DNA of 64,000 nt from Thelonectria olida (lineage: Eukaryota; Ascomycota; Sordariomycetes; Hypocreales; Nectriaceae), in assembly GCA_020736575.1 (NCBI GenBank), contig JAGPYM010000013.1:372001-436000 (forward strand), in the 5' to 3' direction. Both the position numbers and the translations under genes were made by a program. Position 1 is the stretch's first letter; each line of letters begins with the position of its first letter. The notes beneath the pieces are model-generated. The model was not told the origin of the DNA and did no database searches. It saw only the letters and a list, made by a program, of their open reading frames with translations. Shown piece by piece: positions 1,269 to 8,775 of this stretch.

Positions 1269-3687
1269 TCACGATGAGTCGGAATTAGCTTTAGATTTAG
1301 AATCACCTCCCGTGATCTTGTGCCACACCTTTTCCACCTTGTGAGTGATCCAGTCCCACCAGCTGTCTTTGCCCTCGTCTTCTTTGTCATCGCCCTTGTT
1401 GCCACCATTATTAGAATCGCCAGAGCCTGAAGTTGGCTCTGCTGGTTTGGCGGGTTTTGAGGGATTGGATGACGCAGAAGCTTGGGATGGCTCGACGGGT
1501 TGTGAAGGCTCCTTTGGCTTCTCTGGCTTTTCAGGAATAGTCGGACGAGCAGGATCTGAGGGCTTAATAGGTACGCTCGGCCGCAGAGGCTGCGCAGGTT
1601 TCGTGGGCTTCTCCGGGACAGTTGGTCGCACCGGCTCCGTTGTTGGCTGTGGCTTTGATGAAGTCACAGGATCTTCTGGTTCCTCGGGCGTGTCCTCCGA
1701 TTCATGAAGGCCGACAGGCTTAAGAGGCAATCGAAGTGTTCCGTTGTTGGCGGCCGGTTCGATTCCAACTGAGTCACATAGCATGTTATACACTTCGATA
1801 TTTTCTGCTCAACGTTAGTCAATGGATTCCAAAAAAAGTCTTGCACTGTCTCGACTCACGGAAGACATCCACCCTGCTATTAGCGGGATGAGGGAAGGCA
1901 GGGCCGCGTGCAATAAAGATGGCTCGCATCAATGGGTGTTCATGATCATAGCCGTGCAGGCCCCGGGGATGATACACGAGGCCCTTCTCGAGGCCATCCT
2001 TGACGTCGAACTCCTTCTTGGTAGTAATGGCCCATCCCGTCTTAGGAATGACCCACAAGGGAGCAATACGATCATTCTTGGAGAAGTGATATCGCTCAGG
2101 CATGTTGACATCCCGAAGGTAGACCTCAATGTTTGGGTTCGTCTTTGCCTTCTCCGCGAGCTCATCATACATACCTTGTAGATCATCAGGGTTCTTGGGG
2201 CGGAGGCCGAATAGTGGCCAGCCATCATTGTGCTCAACCTTGTCGATGTCGATAAGATCCTCAAGCTGGATCAGTCTCGTGACGTCTGTAGTAGCCATTC
2301 CATGATCCGAGACGATGATGACGTTGACAATGTCAGTCAGATTGCGCTCCTCGAGACCAGCAAAGATCTTATCAAGCATGTTGTCCACTTTGGAGATGGT
2401 GTCACGGATTTCCGTGCTGTTGGGACCGTACTTGTGCCCGTCGGAGTCAACATGGGGAACGTAGGCTGCAATGAGCTGCGGCCGCATATCCTTGACATCG
2501 ACAGTCTTGTCTTCAAAGCCAGGCATATCCAGAAATTGAAAGATTCTGGCTACCTTGTTATCAAGCGTCTCCTTGCCGTTGAACTTGTCCATGATGCTCG
2601 GCTCCGTGTGGAGGACATGCGCCTCGCTTCCAGGCCACATGTGAATGGCGCTTCGAACTCCTTGCTTCTCAGCCGTCACCCAGAAAGGTTCTCCTCCCCA
2701 CCACTTGGGGTCCAGACTTCGTGCAGCGTCGGTATAGTAGAACTCTGCCTCCAGATGTGGATCCCAGAAGCTATTCCCAACAACGCCATGACTTTCGGGG
2801 TACATACCCGTGGCGATCGTGTAGTGGTTTGGGAAGGTGACGGAGGGAAACGATGGGTGCATCCATTTTGGCGAAACACCCTCCTTGACAAAGGCATTCA
2901 GTCGAGGGGTGAGGCCGCGCTGCAGGAAGTCGGCGCGGAAACCATCCAAGCTAATGATAAGAGAGGTGGGCGCGAAGAGTGCAGTCCCGTTGCTCACCAT
3001 GGCCGGTTTGATATGCGCACTCTTGCGGTTCTTAGAGAGCTTCCAGGCGCCCAAAACAAGGATTGCGAATCCGATGGCGATGAGCGCATGAATGAACACC
3101 CAGCGACGCCAGCTCCTTTTTCTGGCTTCAGCAATCATGTTGAGTTGGAAGCGGTCCATCTCGTCACTGTCGTCCCTTTCGCTGCTCTCACCAGTCGAAC
3201 TGCCCTCCTTCATCCCACCTTGTTCCATCTCGTACATCAGCTCGCCGTCTTCACCGTGCTGCGCATCCTCCATCAATCTCTCTTTCTTCTTCTGTCTCCT
3301 CGCGCGCCTGACGATTCGTTTCTCCGAAACCAAGTCTTCGCTCGAACTATTGAAGTCGAGATTTCGGGAAATGCTCGGTCTTCGTCCAAACATTTTGAGC
3401 GGGTTGGGAACTGCGAGCCCAGAGCCGCGACGCTCTCGCTCTTGTTTCTTACGTGTGTCCGTGACGAGCTTGTCCGTCTCCTCTTCCTCCAACAAAACTA
3501 TGCGGTCGTGGGCACGGAGCTCTCGACTATTTCGGGCGCGAGAAATGAGTTGGTCGTCGTCGCTATCGGTGTCCTGGTCGCTTCGAGAGTGGAGGGATGC
3601 GGCATCGTCGTCGTATGCGATGGGGGAAAGGAGACTGGCATTGTCTCGATTCCCGCCAGGAGGGTTTGTGTCAAGATGTAGAGACAT
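1269..3687 (-). CDS. Nucleotide pyrophosphatase/phosphodiesterase, type II membrane protein
   Basis: Two exons (3687..1860 and 1804..1269) joined over a 55-nt GTGAGT…CAG intron give 787 aa. It belongs to the alkaline-phosphatase superfamily NPP group, like yeast Npp1/Npp2, which hydrolyse extracellular nucleotides and pyrophosphate or phosphodiester bonds. A long acidic/basic cytoplasmic N-terminus (1-195) precedes one membrane segment (about 196-217). The catalytic domain follows: SLDGFRADF for metal binding, SVTFPNHYT with the Thr nucleophile, HVDSDGHKYGP, VSDHGM and GLHGYDHEH. The joined frame reads on into QNIEVYNMLCD and PAANNG, conserved ends of the family, which supports the splice. 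The last ~110 residues are a Pro/Lys/Glu-rich linker and a Trp-rich basic helix (WWDWITHKVEKVWHKI). The first ATG was chosen at 3687; the frame opens slightly upstream without another ATG. Confidence 0.93.
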
Positions 3688-4277
3688 TTTTGCAAGCGCT
3701 TGCAACGCCTCTTGCGTGCCTTCACAAATAATACACTCAAAGGGGGCGGTGTCTTATTAACATTCCTCACTGATGTAAAAGGGGATGGGATCGCAAAGTA
3801 GGGTCCGATAAGCTACATTCGAACAGCCGGGGCAAATATCCACCGGGCTCCGGCCATGCAACTGAGCCGGAATTCTCCAGATGACAAGGTTTGGGATTTA
3901 CCGTTATGAGGGCTTCATTGGTGGGATATCGCTATTTAAACGAACTCGTGAAACTCATTACGACATCGAATTGAAGGATCCACGGCCTGGTCCTTTTTCT
4001 GGGATTGATAATCCTGTCAAACGCGACCGTGCAATGTGTTGAATGTCTACAAGCTGGAGTGGATGCCGTGGTTTCGTAATTTTCATCCTTCAAATCGAAA
4101 AGTCGCACCACTCTTGCACCACTTCTATTACTCAAAAATTTAAGAAGATGGCCGATGCACTAGTATCCCTAACGATAGGAATTGCTAATTGCGTTGACAA
4201 TGTTCACAGTCACCCTCAATGTGGACAAAGATTAAGACAGAGATGGTGTAAGAGAACGGCAAAATGGAGACGTGAGC
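3688..4277. other. Intergenic: NPP promoter and tRNA downstream flank
   Basis: About 590 bases with no convincing coding sequence. It should hold the promoter of the phosphodiesterase gene on the minus strand and the region beyond the tRNA-Phe terminator. Confidence 0.4.
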
Positions 4278-4283
4278 AAAAAA
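4278..4283 (-). terminator. RNA polymerase III terminator of tRNA-Phe
   Basis: On the minus strand a run of six T lies 8 nt beyond the discriminator base of the tRNA (GCATTTCTTTTTTGC context). A T-run at this spacing is the usual Pol III stop, and it supports Pol III transcription of the whole interrupted gene. Confidence 0.7.
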
Positions 4284-4291
4284 GAAATGCT

Positions 4292-4417
4292 TGCGGTTTA
4301 TGTGGATCGAACACATGACCTTCAGATCTTCAGTCTGACGCTCTCTGCCAGTGAAGGTTAGTGATTTGCTGTGAGCAGAGGAACGATAAATACGTACCCC
4401 AACTGAGCTAAACCCGC
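4292..4417 (-). tRNA. tRNA-Phe(GAA): tRNA-Phe (anticodon GAA) interrupted in the D-loop
   Basis: The mature 73-nt tRNA is split as 4417..4398 and 4344..4292. Acceptor GCGGGTT pairs with AAACCGC (one G5-A68 mismatch), with discriminator A. The D-stem is GCTC/GAGC. The anticodon arm is TCAGA-CTGAAGA-TCTGA, giving GAA. The T-arm is ATGTG-TTCGATC-CACAT. The A-box (TAGCTCAGTTGG) and B-box (GTTCGATCC) are intact. There is no insert at the canonical 37/38 site. Instead 53 nt lie between positions 20 and 21, and removing them restores the standard fungal D-loop AGTTGGGA exactly. A Pol III T-run follows. The tRNA identity is clear; whether the gene is functional is unknown, since a non-processed copy would be a pseudogene. 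Confidence 0.88.
4345..4397 (-). other. Spliceosomal-like intron inside the tRNA-Phe D-loop
   Basis: The 53-nt insert begins GTACGT, carries CACTAAC with the branch A about 13 nt before the end, and ends GGCAG. These are the three marks of ordinary introns in this same window; GTACGT/GTACGC starts the introns of RPL14, ATP7, transaldolase and the Zn2Cys6 gene, and 45-55 nt is the common intron size. The boundary can slide by one base (a G is repeated at both junctions), but one of the two registers is a perfect GT-AG. Nuclear tRNA introns normally sit at 37/38 and are cut by tRNA endonuclease, so this position and these motifs are atypical. Confidence 0.75.
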
Positions 4418-4753: not shown

Positions 4754-6024
4754 TCAAAGACGCCCTCCCCTACTTGCAAACCATGCCTCCGCCTCATCGA
4801 TCCCCACTAACGAGGTGATGAATATCTTCCCAAACGTATCAATATCATCCGCCATCGCCTCTTCGAACACATTATTGAAACTGCCATTTGTCACCACAAG
4901 ATGCTTCTTATTCATCCATGCCTCTGCAAATGCCATTGGTGTGCGTGCCTCCCAGAGGTACCGTGAAAGCGTCATTGAGTGACACAGCCCAAGCCTCCCA
5001 TCACAGGCCAAGAAATTTTGATGCGATATAATCCGGTAAGTCTGTAGAAAGTAGAACGTGAGGATCAGCGTCCGTCTAATGGACTCATGCAAGATCCATT
5101 CTTGCCAGAATGTCTTGGTCGGGGCGATTGGGAACGTGGGCAGATCGGAGGCTTGACTGAAATCGAATTTAGCCTGAGAAAAGAGCGAGATGGCGGACGT
5201 TTCAATGGCAGAGATGTCGCGTTCTGCAGATGCTCGAGCTCCGATGTCGCCGTCGAACAGACGGATGATCAGATAGAGGAGAAGGGATTGAGTGTGTGCG
5301 AGACACTCTAGTGCTGTATTAGGAGGGGGAGAGCACAAGAGGTCGCTGACCCGAGATTCGATAGAACGGAGAATTACAGGAGCATTCACACGGTTCTTTG
5401 CTAGGTATAAAGCGCAGCAAGCGTGGGCGTCTGAGTCCGTGTTAGAAGCTATGTTCAAAGGAGAGCAAGATGCGTACCTTGTATTGAGCGAGGCATGGCA
5501 TCTTTGTATACCAGCGGATGGCACCAAGGAGTCTGAGTCTCTGATACCATAGTTGAAGGGGCCTTCCTGATCTGATCAATTGACCATTGCAACCTATTTG
5601 CAATAACATCTGGGATTGAATCCAGCTCTTTTGTCGAGAGAGGAGCTACTGTCGACGACTGCTCAATGAGATCAAGGGCTTCATCGCTCAAGGAAAGTTC
5701 AAACGAGGGCAGGTCGACAAAGCCTGTATCAATGGTCGCAGTCACTGAATTAAAGTCATCACAACTTCCCTCAATCTGCCCACCAGTCGATGGTGTTAAA
5801 CACGTCTCGTCATCAATGAGAAGACCAGGCATCGTTGCTGGCTGCGACGATATTGGCAGCTGGGCCCGAGCGGGACGACTTGGATAGGAACAAGCGATGC
5901 GTCTTTGAGAACATCGTAGACAAGCGGGAAGTGCCATATCGCAACGGCGCTTGGCCTTAATGCAGGCGGCGCAAGACTTCCGCCGAGGCGGGGGATTTCG
6001 ACGTTCACGCGCAGTGAGTGACAT
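4754..6024 (-). CDS. Zn2Cys6 transcription factor, short (AflR-like size)
   Basis: Two exons (6024..5478 and 5430..4754) joined over a 47-nt GTACGC…CTAAC…CAG intron give 407 aa. The N-terminal zinc cluster has Cys at 18, 21, 28, 35, 38 and 45, the exact C-X2-C-X6-C-X6-C-X2-C-X6-C spacing of fungal binuclear cluster regulators, with basic residues KAKRR between. No classical fungal_trans middle domain is obvious. The C-terminal half is helical and ends in a conserved-looking block (FEEAMADDIDTFGKIF). The length and layout resemble pathway-specific regulators of metabolite clusters. It is divergent from the NmrA-like gene, with about 420 bp between starts, which suggests shared control. DNA-binding identity is secure; target genes are unknown. 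Confidence 0.88.
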
Positions 6025-8324: not shown

Positions 8325-8775
8325 CTATCGAACCTCTTCCGAACGTGAATGCTTCTGTCCGTCCGCAGCACGAACCGTGACTGGTTCGGCAGTCTGAAAC
8401 ACGGTCGGCGTGTCGGATAGGGATCGAGACATCGGCGCCGAGCAACTACTTCGAGCATCACTATTCATGTCTGTTAGCAAGCAATTTCCCAAACGGAAAG
8501 TGAGAAATTGAGGCGAGGAAGACAAAGAAACTCAGAATATGTAAGAAATTGAAGATCATTTATCCACCTGATATAACTGCTCCGGCGAAAGAGAGTCATC
8601 AGACGGAATCATTCGCAAATTATACTCATCCCAGTAAAACAACATAAAGAGACAGTTGCGCTTACCTTGATGCGTTCTGCGTTGCAGAGGCTGGTCGCCA
8701 AAATTTTGCAGTAAAGCAAGAGGATGATGAGGAAAGAAGCTCCGGGTCCCTGGAAATTTTCTTTTGAAGCTCCAT
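8325..8775 (-). CDS. Possible small Ser-rich unknown protein
   Basis: The model is exon 8775..8666 plus exon 8460..8325, giving 81 aa. Exon 1 begins MELQKKISRDPELLSSSSSCF and reaches FWRPASATQNAS before a good GTAAGC donor. Exon 2 is entered from an AATAG acceptor preceded by GCTAAC and reads SDARSSCSAPMSRSLSDTP to a TAG. The intron would be 205 nt, long for this genome; a 9-nt micro-exon inside it (around 8598-8606) would also keep frame. No domain is recognised. It is convergent with the preceding small gene, and its start lies about 300 bp from RPL14 on the other strand. The supporting evidence is only splice motifs and protein-like composition. Confidence 0.4.

Follow-up and report, generated by a model that had tools for sequence, protein, structure and literature searches.

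Candidate spliceosomal introns in the D-loop of nuclear tRNA-Phe genes of the fungus Thelonectria olida

Of the seven tRNA-Phe(GAA) genes that we found in the genome of Thelonectria olida, four are likely to have their D-loop interrupted at tRNA position 20/21 by a spliceosomal intron of the U2 type, 53-58 nt long; they would be transcribed by RNA polymerase III (Pol III) and relieved of that intron by the spliceosome. Pol III transcription, actual splicing and the use of the spliceosome are steps that we infer from sequence; they suggest that the machinery that trims mRNAs also helps to make a tRNA in this fungus. The type of intron is a known one, and, as far as our search of the literature extended, a nuclear tRNA as the host RNA class is new. 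One of the four genes lies in the window, by which we mean the whole 64,000-nt stretch of DNA that was analyzed, itself part of contig 35 in a 52.5 Mb genome of 165 contigs, the single genome considered here. As judged from one protein, Tudor-SN (92% identity to Mariannaea sp. PMI_226, of the Nectriaceae in the Hypocreales, and 88% to Neonectria punicea), the genome belongs to a filamentous ascomycete near Mariannaea. The features of the window gene are as follows.

4292..4417, minus strand: tRNA-Phe(GAA) gene, full transcribed body including the insert (sequence and copy comparison)
4398..4417, minus strand: exon 1, tRNA positions 1-20, 20 nt (the same in all seven copies found)
4345..4397, minus strand: 53-nt intron of spliceosomal type at tRNA position 20/21 (copy comparison, shuffles and motifs)
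4392..4397, minus strand: 5' splice site GTACGT (sequence; score within the range of 23 candidate protein-coding introns)
4357..4363, minus strand: branch site CACTAAC, with 12 nt from CTAAC to the intron end (sequence)
4345..4347, minus strand: 3' splice site CAG, the first AG past the branch site (sequence)
4292..4344, minus strand: exon 2, tRNA positions 21-73, 53 nt, anticodon GAA (copy comparison)
4399..4410, minus strand: A-box (TAGCTCAGTTGG), wholly upstream of the intron (sequence, against the generally known consensus)
4304..4312, minus strand: B-box core (GTTCGATCC), in exon 2 and wholly after the intron (sequence, against the generally known consensus)
4278..4283, minus strand: T6 run, likely Pol III terminator (sequence; T6 or T7 in the other intron-bearing copies)

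The original prediction described this locus as a tRNA-Phe(GAA) whose only defect is a 53-nt insert at position 20/21, and the boundaries of exon, insert and exon can indeed be read directly from the DNA. The word "only" needs qualifying, as the acceptor stem also holds a G5.A68 mismatch, but that mismatch is common to all seven tRNA-Phe genes and is therefore no defect peculiar to the window copy. Removal of the insert restores a 73-nt tRNA-Phe(GAA), as had been proposed: ARAGORN (standard code, introns allowed) recognizes the joined form as tRNA-Phe, and none of the four unspliced forms. The A-box, B-box and T-run were correctly taken to be intact, and all four intron-bearing genes possess both boxes (by the commonly cited consensus), a cloverleaf and a T-run terminator. 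In the window, neither ARAGORN in its bacterial setting nor Rfam at gathering score reports a tRNA, so routine annotation may overlook the gene.

A DNA search of the genome with the window locus yields seven tRNA-Phe loci. The same seven are recovered, all with 0 mismatches, when the first 28 nt of exon 2 serve as the query and as many as three mismatches are tolerated; tRNA-Phe copies with more than three changes in that piece would escape this query. When these copies are aligned, four of the seven prove to be interrupted at one and the same point, where GGG meets AGAG, each on a separate contig: the window copy, C35 (53 nt), C111 (58 nt), C79b (54 nt) and C86 (54 nt). The remaining loci, C79a, C79c and C75, are intronless. 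C79a, C79b and C79c stand in tandem within about 460 bp (G000:C79:495886-496343), with the intron only in the middle gene. T-runs measure T6-T7 in the four intron-bearing genes and T5 in the three intronless ones.

Every insert carries the signals of an mRNA-type intron. All four begin with GTRNGT (GTACGT, GTACGT, GTATGT and GTGAGT), contain CTAAC with 11-12 nt between it and the insert end, and finish in CAG with no AG between CTAAC and that end. The features used to recognize a U2-type intron, namely GTRNGT, CTRAY at fungal distance and YAG as the first AG after the branch site, are thus found in four of four inserts, and none of the four is an unrelated insert that lacks GT, branch site and AG. 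The GTACGT start, the CACTAAC near the end and the CAG end that had been described for the window copy are all in place, with 12 nt following CTAAC. For every insert 20,000 dinucleotide shuffles were made, and none of them carries the signature. The pattern GTRNGT..CTAAC(5-17 nt)YAG occurs in 2 of 383,670 window stretches of 53, 54 or 58 nt on both strands, one of the two being necessarily the insert itself. The exon-intron junction pattern has no exact match in viral and prokaryote collections, as expected of a fungal feature.

These counts should be read with the relatedness of the inserts in mind. The last 18 nt are common to three of them with a single difference, and these three are probably related; the C86 insert shares little past the motifs (whole-insert z 1.3 to 3.9 against the others, motifs included). 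We may therefore be looking at perhaps one or two events rather than four independent ones. Even with only one or two founding events, chance is not a good explanation of the signals. The shared 18-nt end exceeds what splicing requires and counts against a spliceosomal reading, as does the exon before the intron, which ends in GGG where the usual sequence is AG.

The inserts also resemble the protein-coding introns of the genome, as far as these can be predicted. A mechanical search for introns whose excision reopens the reading frame returned 18 candidates against one in the reversed control (347 kb including overlaps, 150 nt of open frame on each side), with lengths of 45-119 nt and 6-15 nt after the branch motif. 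With 120 nt of open frame on each side the search gave 25 candidates against five reversed (lengths 45-124, 6-16 nt after the branch motif); over 194 kb, with 180 nt required, the figures were eight and none. By weight matrices built from 23 candidates obtained with a wider 5' motif, a set that comes without its own reversed control, the 5' sites of the tRNA inserts score 8.6-9.4 against 6.1-11.6 in the candidates, and their branch sites 6.8-9.4 against 3.8-10.1. The earlier claim that the insert's length and three motifs match protein-coding introns fits these values, with scores, length and spacing inside the candidate ranges. Because the coding candidates are predictions picked partly by the same motifs, the agreement in length and spacing is weightier than the agreement in motifs.

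Spliceosomal splicing of a Pol III RNA has a well-known illustration in fungal U6 snRNA. The U6 gene of Schizosaccharomyces pombe holds a spliceosomal intron with a B-box inside it, others are similarly interrupted, and U6 introns have reportedly been surveyed by Canzler et al. In the genome at hand we obtained one U6 match (47 of 2792 first-look candidates were scored), at G000:C122:777140-777309 on the minus strand, where 170 nt correspond to a model of 105 positions. According to the model alignment, a 71-nt insert with a GTCAGT start, a GCTAAC branch site and a GCTAACAACCTCACAG end lies between AGAT and TAGCATGG, and contains the B-box-like GTTCGAACC. Given a U6 gene with a GT-CTAAC-CAG intron, one expects the spliceosome to act on a Pol III RNA in this genome. 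The U6 insert has a branch-site score of 8.0 and a weak 5' site (4.2, where the coding set runs from 6.1 to 11.6), and the latter counts against U6 as a precedent. Fungal U6 and the tRNA-Phe genes are alike in showing spliceosomal marks in a short structured Pol III RNA; they differ in that U6 is a component of the spliceosome and not a tRNA, and in that the B-box-like element lies within the intron in U6 and in exon 2 in tRNA-Phe.

Other small RNA genes look uninterrupted. All 47 of the 5S genes listed are 120 nt long and without insert (of 2732 first-look candidates, 47 were scored). The three U3 snoRNA loci found (G000:C57:807467, C75:39671 and C88:149807) match their family model along 267-270 nt and give no hint of an insert (24 of 724 scored), although introns are described for U3 of most Pezizomycotina in section 11 of PMC5832005. 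The window itself additionally contains a C/D-box snoRNA of Rfam family Afu_514, at 8530-8636 on the minus strand (44.9 bits).

Could the four insert-bearing loci instead be silent pseudogenes, with tRNA-Phe supplied by the three intact genes? The idea has some backing, as section 5 of PMC4090602 treats inserts in the D- and T-arms as supposed marks of pseudogenes, noting that in eukaryotes usually a single tRNA gene out of many synonymous ones is affected; here, by comparison, they occupy four of the seven copies found. More telling is the contrast between exons and introns. Exons show no difference over 73 positions in any of the six pairs of intron-bearing genes (exon 1 is identical across all seven copies, exon 2 across the four with introns), while the insert cores, between the first 6 and the last 21 nt, are not significantly alike: in the six pairs, 53 to 500 of 500 shuffles reach the observed score, with z scores of -2.3 to 1.8. 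Unchanged exons beside cores at shuffle level are what purifying selection on the exons should leave, and identical exons with divergent cores are the pattern that working genes would show if their introns keep only splice signals. If the three similar inserts are related, the exons would have stayed unchanged since copying as the cores drifted far. This is the main argument against pseudogenes, which the kept splice motifs (four of four) and intact T-runs reinforce, and it leaves the silent-pseudogene alternative weakened to the point where we regard it as unlikely.

The source of the exon identity deserves comment. Joined exons equal the intronless copies save for 1-3 bases, at position 57 and, in two of the three, at the 49-65 pair; copying from intronless genes does not, therefore, explain the identity among the intron-bearing ones. 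Exon-restricted gene conversion among the four intron-bearing copies could, formally, also account for it. The C79b gene is a mosaic: its upstream flank resembles that of its intronless tandem neighbor C79c (z 5.9) and, less clearly, that of C75 (z 3.3), and its exon 2 belongs to the intron-bearing class. Such a mosaic suggests that gene conversion within the C79 tandem array brought the intron together with exon 2 into some members or removed them from others.

Very little credence, in our judgment, attaches to the view that the tRNA splicing endonuclease (Sen) cuts the inserts out at a non-canonical site and tRNA ligase seals the exons, as happens in archaea, Cyanidioschyzon and nucleomorphs. 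The inserts do resemble archaeal, C. merolae and nucleomorph tRNA introns in lying outside the anticodon loop, and a 4-bp central helix is drawable for three of the four precursors. Nevertheless, the full bulge-helix-bulge (a 4-bp helix with at least two pairs on both flanks) was found in none of the four, for one geometry with cuts shifted by one base allowed, and bulge-helix-bulge processing was set aside on that basis. Archaeal and C. merolae introns are marked by that structure, whereas the inserts here bear spliceosomal marks; GT, branch site and AG have, to our knowledge, no role in the Sen pathway, which we count against this route. Canonical nuclear tRNA introns, cut by Sen at 37/38, share with the inserts that they must be removed for a working tRNA. 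The tRNA-Phe inserts differ in sitting at 20/21 and in having GT, branch site and AG, in genes without a canonical intron, and a canonical Sen-processed intron was rejected because of that position. Six other intron-bearing tRNAs of the genome, aligned to the Rfam model, hold their intron in the anticodon loop in six of six cases. Published accounts point both ways: the available part of PMC4090602 gives 20/21 as a non-canonical intron site in archaea, and that of PMC3978253 gives it as the junction of type I permuted tRNAs; against this, the yeast enzyme is described as cutting solely at 37/38 in the excerpted text of PMC4033280, and Guillardia nucleomorph introns are put at 3-24 nt in PMC4090602, compared with 53-58 nt here.

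It is similarly doubtful, to a high degree, that the spliceosome removes the inserts from Pol II read-through transcripts and not from Pol III transcripts. Pol II transcripts are the usual substrate of the spliceosome, and the window gene does lie between two open frames on its own minus strand, at 1819-3753 (a phosphodiesterase by Pfam) and 4754-5575. Yet A-box, B-box and a T6-T7 run are intact in four copies on four contigs, and the U6 RNA of the same genome is itself an intron-bearing Pol III RNA.

Scarcely tenable is a mobile introner-like family as the origin of the inserts, a form that the second reading of the original prediction, an intron-like element come to rest in a tRNA, might take: three inserts on different contigs do have a nearly identical 3' end, but that 18-nt end is exact only in those three tRNA genes and with up to two mismatches turns up at 5 additional places (the backwards control gives 3), the DNA search with the window locus finds tRNA-Phe genes only and so gives no family of the 53-nt insert elsewhere, and one site in one tRNA fits one or two gains plus gene copying better. 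The queries in these searches were the window locus and the end common to three inserts.

We therefore return to a spliceosomal intron in a tRNA that may be transcribed, which the original prediction had put forward and which four of seven copies, four of four sets of motifs and exon identity support at the level of sequence. How such a precursor would mature can be sketched. Pol III would transcribe the gene from its own A- and B-boxes; GTRNGT, CTAAC and CAG would be recognized by the spliceosome, and the intron cut out, as happens in mRNAs and, to judge by its similar marks, in the U6 precursor; once joined, the exons would take up the normal tRNA-Phe fold. The folded tRNA would put both splice sites in the D-loop behind a 4-bp stem, which may mean that splicing comes before folding or is in competition with it. 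A point against the need for any of this is that the three intronless copies could let the cell survive without splicing the others.

Predicted structures are of limited help here. None of the four unspliced precursors has a cloverleaf as its lowest-energy fold, but the same is true of the mature form, whose predicted fold is nearly equal in energy to the cloverleaf; precursor folds consequently tell little. In these folds the 3' end of the intron pairs with exon 2 (ACCTTCA with TGAAGGT, CTGRC with GTCAG). That pairing was considered as the reason for the shared 3' end and rejected, as 163, 51 and 65 of 1000 shuffles are equally low or lower for C35, C111 and C79b, respectively; for the same pairing in C86, 2 of 1000 are as low or lower. 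Whole precursors fold lower than most shuffles, with 97, 23, 31 and 3 of 500 shuffles reaching the value for C35, C111, C79b and C86.

Are such introns confined to tRNA-Phe? A survey with Rfam RF00005 gave 61 tRNAs among the matches listed (63 of 1484 candidates scored), with the three intronless tRNA-Phe included and the four intron-bearing ones absent. ARAGORN on 51 sequences made 72 calls, some of them repeated between overlapping loci. Four fixed patterns that join an A-box to a 5' splice site gave 28, 30, 18 and 30 matches, fewer than the 44, 58, 34 and 52 of the backwards controls. All 28 matches to the first pattern were examined: a T-arm and CTAAC both follow downstream only in the four tRNA-Phe genes, and among the remainder one shows just a T-arm-like piece and two just CTAAC. 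Examination of eight of the 30 second-pattern matches revealed one with the same T-arm-like piece and none with CTAAC; for the third and fourth patterns it covered 11 places of one list, shared with the first.

A model built from chimeras scores the intron-bearing tRNA-Phe genes at 85-98 bits and the intronless at 64-65; because one of its 14 chimeras is tRNA-Phe, these scores arise partly by construction, and the model was applied to selected loci. At 32 other pattern places none exceeds 14.9 bits. One further place invites attention: at G000:C100:959024-959042 on the minus strand, TGGTCTAGTGGTA stands directly before GTAAGT and has the same 13 bases as a tRNA-Pro of the genome. By a rough estimate, about 0.3 such tRNA resemblances are expected in 106 matches. 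The 3' half of tRNA-Pro occurs at seven genomic places, none of them on contig C100. The C100 place is possibly a second isotype with a D-loop intron and should be taken as a lead only. Given the coverage of this survey, spliceosomal introns may also occur in other isotypes.

In the open-access literature, judged mostly by titles and abstracts, we found no nuclear tRNA reported to contain a spliceosomal intron, and the available portions of PMC6461891, PMC11782384, PMC4494063 and PMC9518982 hold nothing on the subject. Eukaryotic tRNA introns are described as removed by endonuclease and ligase in the accessible text of a 2025 account (PMC12621601), and the non-canonical intron search of tRNAscan-SE 2.0 is described for archaea in that of PMC8450103. 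The closest parallels, beside U6, come from U3 snoRNA. The consulted sections of PMC5832005 state that, among small structured RNAs, frequent interruption is known for U3 and U6 only, and that fungal U3 introns show the features of normal spliceosomal introns. As excerpted, that source also reports genomes with both intron-bearing and intronless U3 paralogs, which is the situation of tRNA-Phe here. U3 differs in not being a tRNA and, according to the same sections, in having paralog introns that are almost always very similar, unlike those of the tRNA-Phe genes.

If the four genes are matured as proposed, the consequences reach beyond one locus. We lean, by a modest margin, towards the broader view that the spliceosome may be a regular tRNA-processing enzyme in this lineage, that most tRNA-Phe genes would need it, and that the intron may have spread among paralogs by duplication or gene conversion, possibly to another isotype. 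Textbooks keep two systems apart, with the spliceosome for mRNA-type introns and Sen endonuclease and ligase for tRNAs; the two would meet in a family of nuclear tRNAs that has spliceosomal introns. Such a family would mean that a tRNA precursor can stay open long enough for the spliceosome to assemble, and would provide a clean case of intron gain in a non-protein gene. Tools that search for tRNA genes could miss working genes, as with four of the seven found for a single isotype here. Finally, in such a fungus the supply of tRNA-Phe would be tied to splicing capacity.
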